DNA of 64,000 nucleotides from Siansivirga zeaxanthinifaciens CC-SAMT-1. GTDB taxonomy: Bacteria > Bacteroidota > Bacteroidia > Flavobacteriales > Flavobacteriaceae. Made by a program: the position numbers and the translations under genes. Below the pieces are notes generated by a model. The model had not been told where the DNA came from. It ran no database searches and saw nothing but the letters and a program-made list of their open reading frames with translations. Positions within the stretch are counted from its first letter, which is position 1. The number at the start of each line of letters is the position of its first letter. Positions 2,855 to 5,886 of this stretch are shown in pieces. The stretch spans positions 1,112,001 to 1,176,000 of the forward strand of contig NZ_CP007202.1 of NCBI RefSeq assembly GCF_000941055.1. Direction: 5' to 3'.

Positions 2855-4069
2855 ATGGTTTTAGAAATGAAAGTGCCTTCTCCAGGGGAGTCTATTACTG
2901 AAGTTGAAATAGCAACTTGGCTTGTTGAAGATGGTGATTATGTAGAAAAAGATCAAGCAATAGCTGAAGTAGATAGTGATAAAGCAACTTTAGAATTACC
3001 AGCTGAAGCAAGCGGAATTATCACTCTTAAAGCTGAAGAAGGAGATGCTGTAGCAGTTGGTGCTGTTGTGTGTTTAATAGACACCAGTGCAGCAAAACCT
3101 GAAGGTGGTGAAGCGGCTCCAAAAGCAGAAAAGAAAGAAGAAGCACCTAAAGCTGAAGCGCCTAAGCAAGCAGCTCAGGAAACTAAAACATATGCAACTG
3201 GTACTGCTAGTCCTGCAGCTAAAAAAATTCTTGCCGAGAAAGGTATGGATGCAGCGGCTGTTTCTGGTACTGGAAAAGATGGTCGTGTTACTAAAGAAGA
3301 TGCTGTTAATGCCGTACCTTCTATGGGGACACCTACTGGAGGAAACAGAGGCTCGTCTAAAACTAAAATGTCTATGTTACGTCGTAAAGTAGCAGAGCGT
3401 TTGGTTGAAGCTAAAAATACAACGGCTATGTTAACGACTTTTAACGAAGTTAACATGACGCCTATTTTTGAATTAAGAAATGAATACAAAGATACCTTTA
3501 AAAACAAGCACGGTGTTGGTTTAGGTTTTATGAGTTTCTTTACATTGGCAGTTGTAAGAGCATTAAAAATGTATCCTGCAGTAAACTCAATGATCGATGA
3601 TAAAGAAATGATTTCTTATGATTTCTGCGATATTAGTATAGCTGTTTCTGGTCCTAAAGGCTTAATGGTTCCTGTAATTCGTAATGCAGAAAACTTAAGT
3701 TTTAGAGGCGTAGAATCTGAAGTAAAACGTTTAGCGCTTCGTGCTCGCGATGGTCAAATTACTGTCGATGAAATGACTGGTGGTACTTTTACAATTACTA
3801 ATGGAGGTGTTTTTGGTAGTATGTTATCTACACCAATTATTAACCCGCCACAAAGTGGTATATTAGGTATGCACAATATTATAGAGCGTCCTATAGCTGT
3901 AGATGGTAAAGTTGAAATTCACCCAATGATGTATGTTGCACTATCTTACGATCACAGAATAATTGATGGCAAAGAGAGTGTAGGTTTCTTGGTAGCTGTT
4001 AAAGAAGCTTTAGAAAATCCAACAGAATTATTAATGAATAACGATGTTAAAAAAGCATTAGAGCTTTAA
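2855..4069 (+). CDS. sucB: 2-oxoglutarate dehydrogenase E2, dihydrolipoyl succinyltransferase
   Basis: This 404-residue E2 core subunit transfers succinyl groups from E1 to coenzyme A. The N-terminal lipoyl domain (about 1-75) has the lipoylated lysine K43 in [10 protein letters not shown]. An Ala/Glu/Lys/Pro-rich swinging linker (about 78-112) follows, then a peripheral subunit-binding domain (about 116-155, [12 protein letters not shown]) and the catalytic acyltransferase domain. The active-site motif DHRIIDG places H367 and D371. One lipoyl domain and total length near 400 residues fit SucB rather than the larger pyruvate dehydrogenase E2. It lies 22 bp after sucA and ends just before a strong palindromic terminator. 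Confidence 0.97.
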
Positions 4070-4137: not shown

Positions 4138-4236
4138 CTAAAATAAAATTAGGATATTTATACTAATAACAATTATCACCACAGTTATTAAACCAACAAT
4201 AAAATATTTATCCAAGTATCTGTTGTCTTTTTCCAT
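4138..4236 (-). CDS. 32-residue single-pass membrane peptide (hypothetical)
   Basis: An ATG-initiated reading frame of 33 codons encodes a charged head (MEKDNRYLDKY), then an unbroken hydrophobic stretch (about residues 12-32, FIVGLITVVIIVISINIL...) ending in TAG. This is the layout of a small single-pass inner-membrane peptide. The case for a real gene comes from context. About 58 bp upstream of the ATG is a TAAATTTA -7-like element (4294-4301) with a dyad operator (4324-4341) exactly 22 bp before it. The three neighbouring RNA units repeat this geometry, and the transcript would end at the bidirectional terminator 4088-4119. No family is recognised. It could be a regulatory peptide or a small toxin-like peptide, but the sequence alone does not show which. 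Confidence 0.55.
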   Translation of the reverse strand: MEKDNRYLDKYFIVGLITVVIIVISINILILF

Positions 4237-4293: not shown

Positions 4294-4341
4294 TAAATTT
4301 AAAGAGGAAAAAGATTTAATTAAATACGTAATTATACGTAT
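4294..4341 (-). promoter_or_regulatory. Dyad promoter D1 driving the 32-residue peptide
   Basis: The dyad ATACGTAATTATACGTAT (4324-4341) has perfect 7-bp arms around ATTA. Exactly 22 bp downstream on the minus strand is TAAATTTA (4294-4301), a TAnnTTTA -7-like element. The dyad occupies the place of the -33 box, which suggests an activator-dependent promoter. An inferred start near 4288 gives a leader of about 50 nt before the peptide ATG at 4236. Confidence 0.6.
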
Positions 4342-4359
4342 TTAATTTGGGGTTAGTCC

Positions 4360-4433
4360 ATAAAATGCGAAAGGCTCCAGATTAATAAAAATCTAGAACC
4401 TTTCTTTAATTCTCCCTAAGAACTAATTAATAG
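4360..4433 (-). ncRNA. Small structured RNA unit A (tandem array)
   Basis: The predicted transcript is about 74 nt, from a start inferred 6 nt after the TATCTTTA element to a U-rich tail. It has a 5' hairpin with a UAGG-type loop (4408-4424) and a 3' hairpin (4369-4404). The 3' hairpin pairs completely on the minus strand using two G-U pairs but has C-A mismatches on the plus strand, so transcription should be leftward. Seventy bp (4362-4431) are identical to unit B. No useful reading frame is present. Alternative: a repeated intergenic hairpin element that is not an RNA gene. Confidence 0.5.
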
Positions 4434-4438
4434 CACGG

Positions 4439-4486
4439 TAAAGATATATAATATGTTTTAATTAAAGAATACGTAGTACTGCGTAT
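4439..4486 (-). promoter_or_regulatory. Dyad promoter D2 of RNA unit A
   Basis: The dyad ATACGTAGTACTGCGTAT (4469-4486) lies 22 bp upstream (minus strand) of TATCTTTA (4439-4446). One arm differs by one base from D1. The spacing is the same as in the other three copies. Confidence 0.55.
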
Positions 4487-4502
4487 TTTATTATAAATTC
4501 AT

Positions 4503-4576
4503 TAAAAATGCGAAAGGCTCCAGATTAATAAAAATCTAGAACCTTTCTTTAATTCTCCCTAAGAACTAATTAATTG
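4503..4576 (-). ncRNA. Small structured RNA unit B (tandem array)
   Basis: This is the second copy, 143 bp from unit A and identical to it over 70 bp (4505-4574). The 5' hairpin comes from 4551-4567 and the 3' hairpin from 4512-4547, followed on the minus strand by GCATTTTT as a terminator-like tail. The sequence between units A and B is much less similar outside the dyad and -7 element, so selection appears to act on the RNA body and the promoter. Confidence 0.5.
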
Positions 4577-4581
4577 CTTTG

Positions 4582-4629
4582 TAAATGTATATAATGCGAT
4601 TTAAATAAGTAATACGTAATTCTTCGTAT
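4582..4629 (-). promoter_or_regulatory. Dyad promoter D3 of RNA unit B
   Basis: The dyad ATACGTAATTCTTCGTAT (4612-4629) lies 22 bp upstream (minus strand) of TACATTTA (4582-4589). The left arm ATACGTA is identical in all four dyads and the right arm varies by one base. Confidence 0.55.
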
Positions 4630-4632
4630 TTA

Positions 4633-4707
4633 TAAAAAATAAAAGGCCCTAGATTTATAAAAGCCTAGAACCCTTGTGTTTAATAATTTCCTATGAAATT
4701 ATTGATA
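4633..4707 (-). ncRNA. Small structured RNA unit C, diverged copy
   Basis: This is the third unit, diverged in sequence but with the same layout. The 5' hairpin is a perfect 9-bp stem AATAATTTC/GAAATTATT with loop ATAG (4682-4703). The 3' hairpin (4644-4673) has a 10-bp stem on the minus strand including G-U pairs, and is followed by a T-rich tail (4630-4643 as A on plus). Stem sequences differ from units A and B while pairing is kept, which is the pattern of a structured RNA. It begins about 50 nt after the stop codon of the response regulator gene. Confidence 0.5.
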
Positions 4708-4712
4708 GCAGT

Positions 4713-4760
4713 CAAATATAGCTTACCAACATAATATGGTAAATACGTACTTGTACTTAT
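4713..4760 (-). promoter_or_regulatory. Dyad promoter D4 of RNA unit C
   Basis: The dyad ATACGTACTTGTACTTAT (4743-4760) overlaps the last codon and stop of the response regulator gene. The -7 element TATATTTG (4713-4720) is a perfect match to TAnnTTTG and sits 22 bp downstream on the minus strand. Confidence 0.6.
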
Positions 4761-5392
4761 AATTGTATGTGTTGCTTGTTTAAATTTGCCCAAATAGATA
4801 GGGAGGTTGGTTTGTTATCTAATTTTAATTTAGAAACAATGTTGCTGCGATGTTTATCAACAGTTCTTACAGATATGGATAATTCGTCGGCGATATTCTG
4901 ACTCGTTTTGTTCTCTGATATAAGTTTTACAATTTTTAATTCAGATTTTGTAAGTAAGTGTATTTTGTCGGGAGATTTTTCTGGATTTTTATTTAAATAC
5001 TGAGCTATTTCTTGACTAAAATATGGTTCGTTTTTAAGTACATGCTCAATGCAGGTTTCGATTTCTTCAACAGCAAATTCCTTTAAAATGTAGCCGTAAA
5101 CATTAAATTCTTTAGCCTTATCGTATAGTTCTTCTTCTTTATCGAAGGTTATTAAAACAATTTTAGTGTTTAATTGATTTTTTTTACAAATTTCGGCAAT
5201 TTCTAAGCCTGTTAAATGGGGCATTCTAATATCTAAAATTGCAATTTCTGGTTTTAATTTAACAATTAAATTATAGGCAGAATTCCCATCGGTAGCACTC
5301 CCAACAATATTAAATCCTTTCGATTTTAAAAAATCAGATAAACCACGAAGCATTAGCGGATGATCGTCTGCAATTACAATAGAAGTAGACAT
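4757..5392 (-). CDS. NarL/FixJ-type response regulator with LuxR HTH
   Basis: This 211-residue protein has an N-terminal receiver domain (about 3-120) and a C-terminal LuxR-type helix-turn-helix (about 145-205). The receiver residues are intact: acidic pair D9/D10, phospho-acceptor D54 in ILDIRMP, T82 and K104. The HTH carries the usual LTKSELKIVKLI and SVRTVDKHRSNI motifs. It is therefore a phosphorylation-dependent DNA-binding regulator. No histidine kinase gene adjoins it, so it is an orphan here. It follows the CHAT/retropepsin genes on the same strand after a 50-bp gap that contains its own TATATTTA element (5429-5436). Its 3' end runs into the first dyad of the small-RNA array, which makes it the natural candidate to bind those dyads. 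That link is inference. Confidence 0.9.
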   Translation of the reverse strand: MSTSIVIADDHPLMLRGLSDFLKSKGFNIVGSATDGNSAYNLIVKLKPEIAILDIRMPHLTGLEIAEICKKNQLNTKIVLITFDKEEELYDKAKEFNVYGYILKEFAVEEIETCIEHVLKNEPYFSQEIAQYLNKNPEKSPDKIHLLTKSELKIVKLISENKTSQNIADELSISVRTVDKHRSNIVSKLKLDNKPTSLSIWANLNKQHIQL

Positions 5393-5428
5393 GTGTTTCG
5401 TAGGTTTAGTTGCTATTAATAAGATAGG

Positions 5429-5442: not shown

Positions 5443-5886
5443 TTATAATTTTAAGTAAAGATGTTTTTTATCGTAATCAATTATAGCTTTGCCTTTCTTT
5501 AAAATATCGGCACCAATAATACCATCAACGGGTTTCGCATTATGATTAATAAGTGCGGTATTAACATGTGTTAAATTAAATAAAACCAGAATCACTTTAT
5601 CGTATTTCCATTTGCCTATTTTAATTTTATTTTTTTTAGACATTTTAGTTTCCATGTTTATAGCCCCAGCCCCAGCGGCCATAATTTCCGAGTCTTTTAC
5701 TTTTAGGTTAAATGTTTTTGAAGCTTCAAACCCCACACATGAATTAGAGGCACCCGTATCTAAAATAAATAACCCATTTTTTCCATTTATGGAGGCTTTT
5801 ATTTCGAAATGATTCGTTTTTGTAAGTTTCAATTTAGTTTTTGAATACCCTTTTTCAAGAAGAAATTGTTGCAGTTTTTCTGTCAT
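5443..5886 (-). CDS. Retropepsin-like aspartic protease
   Basis: This 147-residue single-domain protein has the two hallmarks of retropepsin-like aspartic proteases. These are the catalytic loop ILDTGASNS with D43, and a C-terminal hydrophobic-hydrophobic-Gly element, GIIGADIL (about 122-129). Such enzymes work as dimers, each subunit giving one aspartate. There is no signal peptide or membrane segment, so it is probably cytoplasmic. Its start overlaps the 3' end of the TPR-CHAT gene by 32 nt, implying translational coupling. Finding two proteases of different catalytic type fused into one operon suggests they act in one pathway. Its substrate is unknown; a peptide-binding role is also possible. 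Confidence 0.85.
   Translation of the reverse strand: MTEKLQQFLLEKGYSKTKLKLTKTNHFEIKASINGKNGLFILDTGASNSCVGFEASKTFNLKVKDSEIMAAGAGAINMETKMSKKNKIKIGKWKYDKVILVLFNLTHVNTALINHNAKPVDGIIGADILKKGKAIIDYDKKHLYLKL

Follow-up and report, generated by a model that had tools for sequence, protein, structure and literature searches.

The locus and its three RNA units

The window analysed here is the whole stretch of 64,000 nucleotides from the genome of Siansivirga zeaxanthinifaciens CC-SAMT-1 (contig NZ_CP007202.1, positions 1,112,001 to 1,176,000 of the forward strand), and window coordinates are counted from its first letter. The minus strand carries three structured small RNA (sRNA) units, designated A, B, and C, in the block at 4360-4707, next to a gene for a LuxR/NarL-type response regulator (RR). 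The features of the locus are listed below in the order in which the minus strand reads them.

5443..5886, minus: clan AA aspartyl protease gene, upstream of the RR gene (Pfam Asp_protease_2, 3.1e-11)
5412..5420, minus: ATTAATAGC in the RR leader (-28 to -20), complementary to the sRNA 5' end GCUAUUAAU; proposed target site
4757..5392, minus: LuxR/NarL-type RR, 211 aa (Pfam Response_reg, 1.3e-23; GerE, 4.2e-12); presumed activator and presumed target
4743..4760, minus: dyad (regulator box) of unit C, one mismatch against the search pattern; 22 nt upstream of the -7 element
4713..4720, minus: -7 element of unit C, TATATTTG, identified by its sequence
4634..4709, minus: sRNA unit C (diverged), start inferred; 5' hairpin 4703-4682, terminator-like hairpin 4675-4642 and U-tract; covariance-model E 1.7e-5
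4612..4629, minus: dyad of unit B (pattern search and geometry)
4582..4589, minus: -7 element of unit B, TACATTTA, identified by its sequence
4503..4577, minus: sRNA unit B, start inferred; 5' hairpin 4569-4549, 3' hairpin 4547-4512; covariance-model E 7.3e-11
4469..4486, minus: dyad of unit A (pattern search and geometry)
4439..4446, minus: -7 element of unit A, TATCTTTA, identified by its sequence
4359..4434, minus: sRNA unit A, start inferred; 5' module GCTATTAATTAGTTCTTAGGGAGAATTA, 5' hairpin 4426-4406, 3' hairpin 4404-4369; covariance-model E 1.6e-11
4324..4341, minus: fourth dyad, 22 nt upstream of TAAATTTA (4301-4294); taken to be the promoter of the small open reading frame (ORF)
4138..4236, minus: 32-aa microprotein with a single transmembrane (TM) segment, MEKDNRYLDKYFIVGLITVVIIVISINILILF; unannotated, with similar ORFs in relatives
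2855..4069, plus: odhB/sucB, convergent, bounding the locus (Pfam 2-oxoacid_dh)

The units have a common layout on the minus strand: an 18-nt dyad, 22 nt, a -7 element, 11-12 nt, and the inferred start, after which come the 5' module with its hairpin and then a hairpin with a U-rich end. Units A and B have an exact 70-bp block in common (offset 143), within a 127-nt repeat at 88% identity. The minus-strand folding energies are -27.3 kcal/mol for A (z -6.1), -26.9 for B (z -5.8), and -18.4 for C (z -4.4), and the plus-strand folds are weaker (-13.2, z -2.5; -13.1, z -3.1; and -16.3, z -3.3, respectively). The 3' hairpins of A and B close completely on the minus strand only, and on that strand the 5' stem of C is a perfect 9 bp with the loop AUAG. 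A terminator-like end is clear in C (CCUUUUAUUUUUU) and weak in A (CGCAUUUUAU) and B (CGCAUUUUUAAU). A sequence-only reading of the window had claimed that A and B share 70 identical bp and that C is diverged, that the 3' hairpins of A and B are complete on the minus strand only and C has a 9-bp stem, and that every unit has a terminator-like U-rich end; the first claim was upheld by sequence comparison and the second by folding, and the third held only in part.

An RNA family in the Flavobacteriaceae

Among 149 relatives, blastn found matches to the units in 43, often weak ones, and a covariance model found them in 91 of 299 genomes of the family (E <= 0.001); we take the family code of the sampled genomes to be that of the Flavobacteriaceae, judging from the named matches. 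In a phylum-wide sample, the model found only 4 positives among 395 genomes (E <= 1e-4), all of them Flavobacteriaceae and one of them the genome studied here. The carriers include at least Algibacter, Formosa, Olleya, Lacinutrix, Flavivirga, Hyunsoonleella, Seonamhaeicola, Tamlana, Mangrovimonas, and Jejuia. A search of the window against Rfam at the gathering threshold returned two tRNAs and no match to the sRNA units, and at a low threshold it gave three window matches (E 0.59, 2.3, and 3), all to eukaryotic RNAs. Viral contigs scanned for the 5' module gave no match. The own genome holds four strong model copies (next best E 0.024), three in the array and one beside another LuxR gene; the last (G000:C1:309203-309282) belongs to the second promoter type described below and has an altered 5' hairpin. 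Arrays consist of one to six units. The largest array seen, with six units, lies at locus L204 (2252-4306), where two small membrane-protein ORFs stand beyond the last unit detected by the script.

The bias toward one strand is general. Of 176 unique units from relatives and the window, 170 fold more stably on the sense strand, and z falls below -2 in 172 units on the sense strand versus 124 on the antisense strand (mean z, -4.28 versus -2.81). Covariation was examined in an alignment of 32 units. The 3' helix has 12 pairs, with 96% of cells pairing and 10 pairs changed on both sides, and its covariation score is 0.608, compared with 0.334 for shuffled alignments (0 of 500 reach the observed score) and at most 0.263 for slid partners. 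It should be mentioned that the structure had been derived from this very alignment, which biases the slid control in its favour, and that the shuffle control ignores relatedness. The 5' hairpin is nearly invariant in the main group and for this reason covaries little.

The first 28 nt of the units are strongly conserved and the sequences drift beyond about nt 30, although the table behind this statement (111 + 12 units) contains only units preselected for TTAGGGAG. In the loci found by blastn or the model, which are free of that choice but were themselves seeded by the window units, TTAGGGAG lies within the first 40 nt in 42 of 65 units and the exact 28-mer is present in 35. Over all 180 units used, TTAGGGAG is present in 124 and absent in 56. 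Loci L089-L204 were found through the exact module, so that its conservation there, and in 12 of the 13 units of the second promoter type, is a matter of selection by the search. The loci are also related to one another; unique sequences were counted once.

The main objection to an RNA interpretation would be that the block is a mobile intergenic repeat, or a set of chance palindromes without RNA function, and the near-identical tandem copies can be cited in its favour. On the contrary, the covariation, the strand bias (170/176), the recurring synteny and promoter spacing, and the presence of only four strong copies in the own genome all speak against this view, and we regard it as practically ruled out. 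We are thus highly confident that the units are real RNAs of a family that is not in Rfam and was found here only in Flavobacteriaceae, with the reservation that their expression is inferred. The sequence-only reading had taken a minus-strand bias and compensatory changes as signs of functional RNA. The bias held in sequence comparison (folding z and relatives), and the compensatory changes held in that 10 of the 12 pairs tested change on both sides. That reading had proposed a covariance model built from homologues and a comparison with Rfam as checks; the former, when run, supported covariation in the 3' helix, and the latter matched no family. What it had named as a refutation, namely homologues without covariation and a block behaving as a mobile repeat, was not borne out by covariation, copy number, or synteny.

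Promoters and probable regulators of the units

To collect units, we used a regular expression that demanded a -7-like string and a GCTATTAAT-like start, which gave 192 units; both of these elements are therefore present by construction, and the dyad spacing is not. The window dyads resemble the 18-nt ATACGnAnnnnTnCGTAT (TACGTA type), and dyads of this kind define type I, with 171 of the 192 units. The dyad lies exactly 22 nt before the -7 element in 165 of the 171. A different dyad, ATACTCAAATTGAGTAT, defines type II (13 units), with the 22-nt spacing in 12. A box was accepted with up to four mismatches, and 129 of the 168 type-I boxes at 21 or 22 nt have no mismatch to the box pattern. Twelve rows were dropped (eight without a dyad and four with odd spacing) and 180 were used; four of the dropped rows (L030, L046, L190, and L192) look like real units, and the other eight do not. 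The TAnnTTT(A/G) element resembles the -7 box of the Bacteroidota. The implied dyad centre is near -43 relative to the inferred start, and a centre near -43 is the position of class II LuxR-type activators.

The gene neighbourhood recurs as well. Where the type-I loci have room, an RR homologue lies upstream in 43 of 46, the aspartyl protease gene lies beside the RR gene in 38 of 40, and odhB is present in 28 of 43; the CHAT-TPR gene found in the window recurs less regularly (9/34 type-I loci). In many of the type-I loci, some 54-64 nt separate the RR stop codon from the start of the first unit. The type-II units follow a PAS-LuxR gene in 7 of 7 cases and face murF in 5 of 8. On these grounds, it is very likely that the units are driven by LuxR-type regulators through the dyads; direct binding by the neighbouring RR is inferred. 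Of the earlier claims, one dyad promoter per unit is thus supported by the geometry across relatives, and the tie to a LuxR-type regulator by synteny.

The same module is moreover combined with two boxes that are unrelated, as are the terminators, which argues that selection acts on the RNA itself. A reservation is that the module itself led to most of the type-II loci. At least one box counted as type I (L120 4841) is really a third palindrome, atacccagaaatgggtat. At this locus (4841 and 6107), the unit follows a different RR, the palindrome is 22 nt before the -7 element, and the unit adjoins a PAS-LuxR gene with a type-II unit. A third regulator class may thus drive the same kind of RNA there. 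Elsewhere in the own genome (C1:666844-666861; L080 1501-1518), the dyad ATACGGAGACTTTCGTAT has TAnnTTTG exactly 22 nt away on both sides and sits between a tex-like gene (named by eye) and an unknown membrane-protein gene; it could be a divergent promoter used by the same regulator or by a sister one.

The RR of the window contains receiver and GerE domains, with no sigma54-activator domain at E <= 0.001, and it resembles NarL/UvrY-type regulators, below the curated cut-offs. RR orthologues with 54-56% identity occur at L243 and L245, in genomes without model matches, where the start of the RR gene overlaps or abuts the tail of an upstream histidine-kinase-like gene (by eye). In the genomes with sRNAs, the aspartyl protease gene takes the upstream place of that kinase-like gene. 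From these upstream neighbours, it may be inferred that the partner kinase of the RR has moved, which is no more than a possibility.

The resemblance to UvrY raises another explanation, in which the units are CsrA/RsmA-type decoys (RsmY/Z-like) that have GGA in the loop and are induced by a GacA-like regulator. The AGGGAG loop and the NarL/UvrY-like RR, below cut-offs as it is, are in its favour. However, no CsrA (PF02599) was found in the own genome by a search that was positive in the controls E. coli, B. subtilis, and T. maritima, and GGA is missing from many of the leader-type units. With no match to CsrA in the own genome, we rejected the decoy reading as very unlikely.

The RR leader as a proposed target

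The leaders of 84 RR genes (unique sequences, -45 to -1, with the RR at least 45% identical) were searched for complements of the conserved 5' module. TAATAGC, the complement of the 5' tail, is present in 43 of the 84 (shuffle mean 1.4 and maximum 5 over 200 shuffles; reverse complement, 1/84), and a CU element (TCCCT, CTCTC, or CTCCT), which complements the loop, in 56 (12.3 on average and at most 19 in shuffles; reverse complement, 1/84). Both sites are present in 31 of the 84 leaders, versus 0 of 549 background leaders, among which TAATAGC occurs in 6 and CU elements in 18; the background consisted of the leaders of ORFs of >=150 aa, annotated or not, taken at the first ATG, and 65 RR-like ORFs were left out. 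The last CU element starts 5-26 nt upstream of the AUG, mostly 11-14 nt. Each half of the data shows the signal: the 37 leaders from the blastn/model loci and the window (tail 18, CU 23, both 12) and the 47 from the pattern-found loci (tail 25, CU 33, both 19).

The match is far weaker at other genes of the same loci. Within -50 to -1, TAATAGC occurs before 1 of 84 aspartyl protease genes and before 0 of 58 odhB, 0 of 23 murF, and 0 of 25 PAS-LuxR genes; CU elements occur in 1/82, 0/57, 0/23, and 8/25, respectively. The duplex z values against shuffled leaders are -1.57 (loop) and -2.70 (tail) for the RR leaders, compared with -0.04 and 0.13 for the aspartyl protease, 0.28 and -0.15 for odhB, 0.29 and 0.07 for murF, and -0.23 and 0.07 for the PAS-LuxR gene. 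Against 30 letter-shuffled loops, the value is -2.49 for the RR, -0.84 for the PAS-LuxR gene, and -0.08 to 0.30 for the others. At least 18 changes on the RR tree are required for TAATAGC, and at least 21 for the CU element.

The leader of the window RR itself has the tail site only (ATTAATAGC). Its duplex with the tail of unit A has an energy of -10.2 kcal/mol (p 0.002 versus 1000 shuffles), and the tail p is 0.007 for unit C and 0.015 for unit B, with one mismatch; loop pairing is no better than in shuffles (p 0.25 for A, 0.26 for B, and 0.054 for C). Across the set of 84 RR leaders, TAATAGC is missing from 41, the CU element from 28, and both sites from 16. The two sites usually stand in an order that is permuted with respect to plain antisense. 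This disfavours an inherited inverted copy as the source of the complementarity, and it also makes simultaneous use of both sites by a single RNA improbable.

The association between CTCTC in the leader and GAGAGAG in the loop (Fisher 8e-6) was considered as covariation and withdrawn, since about one supported independent pair agrees on the RR tree. A strict pattern, TTAATAGC followed by TCCCT and ATG, was searched in 45 of the 91 positive genomes and gave 34 matches at 32 places. The reversed control gave 7, but it contains a CG, which may in itself make it rarer. Most of the genome-wide matches do not precede a long ORF. Among 30 fetched loci, 11 read into an ORF of >=60 aa, and three of these ORFs are the RR (L275, L283, and L291); with a fourth RR match in G036, the strict bipartite site stands before the ATG of the RR gene in four genomes of four genera, and the RR gene is the only one seen to recur across genera. 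A look-alike bipartite match in G229 was rejected, as it precedes a different, ArsC-like ORF (named by eye).

Several single loci are of note in this connection. At L242, where the RR orthologue is 74% identical, the sRNA unit looks decayed and neither leader site is present; L244 has a diverged unit with a GGGG loop and both leader sites; L246 has units of a related kind and no leader site. One of the 25 PAS-LuxR leaders (L126) contains TTCTCCCTAAGAATC, a long complement of the loop region, about 35 nt before the start codon. In the window, an ORF resembling asparaginyl-tRNA synthetase (asnS-like, named by eye) has two copies of TAATAGC just before its start codon.

Searches for other targets

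Target prediction from the exposed loop, which the sequence-only reading had put forward as a check, gave no conserved trans target; the complementarity to the RR leader emerged from the RR start regions of the relatives. Sites matching CTCCCTAA number 28 in the own genome versus 23 for the reversed control, and two of the 28 are the sRNAs themselves, so there is no clear enrichment. The longer CTCCCTAATTAATAG has a match in 6 of 34 genomes, and the reversed control matches in more. In the own genome (C1:2772047; L228 1501-1515), CTCCCTAATTAATAG lies 55 nt before a secreted 175-aa ORF and pairs with the module with a 7-nt bulge; this ORF was rejected as a trans target, since the site is not conserved in relatives. 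Duplex searches with the module and the loop against the leaders of the aspartyl protease, odhB, CHAT, PKD, murF, and small-ORF genes gave no family-wide signal (CHAT and PKD with four leaders only), and matches to odhB or the aspartyl protease gene that were seen in the window alone faded across relatives. In one genus (L285 and L286), a gene for an exported protein of about 140 aa has a leader with TTAATAGC, AACCCTTAA, and TTCCCTTAAA before the ATG. Homologues are present in 5 of 33 genomes, and the leaders of two of them were read; the protein is a possible candidate for a trans target.

It could be asked whether the sRNAs, although real and RR-activated, have their main job on unlinked trans targets or on an RNA-binding protein, with the RR-leader match being minor or a shared protein-binding element. 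Three points favour this reading: (i) the module is conserved beyond the need of one drifting target (the exact 28-mer in 35 of 65 blastn/model units); (ii) the second regulator class has the module, yet the PAS-LuxR leaders show no significant duplex signal and have CU elements in only 8 of 25; and (iii) RNA-binding proteins such as RbpB exist in the Bacteroidota (PMC11697453). Against it, CTCCCTAA sites are not clearly enriched in the own genome, the strongest longer site is not conserved, and the leader match is strand-specific and far stronger at the RR gene than at other genes. We lean against this alternative without being able to set it aside, and we prefer the reading in which the RR-activated sRNAs repress the mRNA of their own RR. 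The latter is likely, in our judgement; transcription, direct RR binding, repression, and other targets are all inferred, and there are no expression data.

A membrane microprotein after the last unit

Of 101 type-I arrays, 77 have an ORF of 30-39 aa with a single TM segment after the last unit; none of the 11 type-II arrays does. The mean pN is 0.22 and the mean pS is 0.55, and pN < pS in 312 of 316 pairs; because of this, the ORF is considered to be coding, although the pairs are not independent. No model in Pfam or NCBIfam matched the microprotein. The search for the small ORF demanded a hydrophobic stretch and the motif [IVLMF]N[ILMVF], so that finding an invariant Asn is to some extent circular, a reservation that does not apply to the pN/pS test. 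The ORF starts <=125 nt from the start of the last unit in 56 of the 77 cases, and 35 of those last units have no UUAGGGAG loop. In many arrays, the last unit may be read as a leader of the microprotein mRNA. At L243 and L245, which are without model matches as mentioned above, a small TM ORF comes immediately after a dyad-like palindrome, with odhB next in line. It can be speculated from these two loci that a core of RR, dyad, and microprotein predates the sRNAs.

A small hydrophobic single-TM peptide beside multicopy sRNAs also recalls type I toxin-antitoxin systems, in which the membrane peptide of about 33 aa would be the toxin and the tandem RNAs would be antisense antitoxins, as in dinQ-agrAB or ldr-rdl. 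However, the sRNAs and the small ORF are on the same strand and have the same promoter type, the 77 start regions of the small ORFs show no pairing signal (mean z 0.28 for the module and 0.18 for the loop, with CUCCC or UCCCUA in 0 of 77), and no such ORF exists in the type-II arrays (0/11). Judged by these start regions, the sRNAs are not antisense to the mRNA of the small peptide, and this reading, very unlikely on the evidence, was rejected.

Small membrane proteins of the MgrB-PhoQ type offer a comparison for the microprotein. The likeness lies in a short single-TM protein, and here its promoter box is of the same type as those of the sRNA promoters beside the RR gene. The difference is that the microprotein has no known sensor kinase partner, and its function is not established.

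Comparison with known sRNA systems

A search of the open-licence PMC literature found no description of the present RNA or of an RR-feedback sRNA in Flavobacteriaceae. OmrA and OmrB of the Enterobacterales are paired, RR-activated sRNAs that repress the mRNA of their own regulator, ompR-envZ, and the pairing predicted in Yersinia overlaps the ribosome-binding site (PMC12692685). The likeness is that RR-activated sRNAs act back on the message of their own regulator, as proposed here. The differences are that the present units have no Rfam match and no detected homology, that a second regulator class uses the same module, and that the microprotein has the same promoter type. OmpR is not a LuxR/NarL-type regulator. 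In Vibrio, Qrr1-5 are multicopy sRNAs activated by a response regulator, and they feed back to repress luxO (PMC8043402); they resemble the proposed system in copy number and in the feedback on the activating response regulator. The Qrr promoters are sigma54-dependent, and Hfq is used. In contrast, the present units have a TAnnTTTG-type -7 element with a palindromic box, a NarL-type neighbour, another phylum, and no Rfam match. The earlier suggestion of a Qrr- or OmrA/B-like logic thus held in sequence comparison as an analogy, and homology is not shown. What had been missed was the microprotein with the same promoter type, the second regulator class, and the leader of the regulator itself as the likely target.

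Within the Bacteroidota, the closest multicopy family that we met is FopS of Bacteroides thetaiotaomicron, whose paralogous sRNAs have a conserved 5' seed, a single-stranded 5' stretch, and a terminator hairpin, with 12-15 copies per genome and SusC-type targets (PMC11697453). The present family differs in its predicted 5' hairpin, its tandem copies, and the regulator box on each promoter. Rfp18 of Flavobacterium psychrophilum is a conserved structured sRNA from the same bacterial family as the present units, with a pairing region predicted in its third stem-loop and targets that include metalloproteases (PMC9723704); the predicted pairing by the third stem-loop and the metalloprotease targets are points in which it differs.

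Proposed circuit and its meaning

The RNA family, the covariation, the promoter geometry, the synteny, the complementarity, and the coding nature of the microprotein are shown by sequence comparison; the circuit that would join them is a proposal. The neighbouring LuxR/NarL-type RR would bind the TACGTA-type palindrome about 43 nt before the start and activate each sRNA. The sRNAs would end at the terminator-like hairpin, and their conserved 5' module would present a single-stranded tail, GCUAUUAAU, and a hairpin with the loop UUAGGGAG. In the leader of the RR mRNA, shortly before the AUG, the tail would pair with UAAUAGC and the loop with CUCCCU or CUCUC, and this pairing would lower the translation of the RR, which closes a negative feedback loop. 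The same RR would probably also activate the microprotein of about 33 aa after the last unit.

A bolder reading, which is possible at best, regards the 28-nt module as a means of feedback common to at least two separate LuxR-type regulators. It would be driven from the same promoter position by both the TACGTA-class RR and the CTCAAATTGAG-class PAS-LuxR. The two-part site in the RR leader would need two sRNA molecules, with the tail of one on one part and the loop of another on the other part, and this need would be the reason for the tandem genes. The array itself may have arisen by duplication of the microprotein leader, with the microprotein as a second feedback arm.

The Bacteroidota mostly do not use Shine-Dalgarno pairing. 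If the circuit is confirmed, the RR-sRNA feedback motif of the Proteobacteria would have been rebuilt in this phylum from unrelated parts. It would also provide a conserved model in which the regulator, the box, the RNA, the target site, and the companion microprotein are known, in cultured marine genera such as Formosa, Algibacter, and Lacinutrix, where the natural variation in copy number and leader sites makes gene dosage and cooperativity testable.
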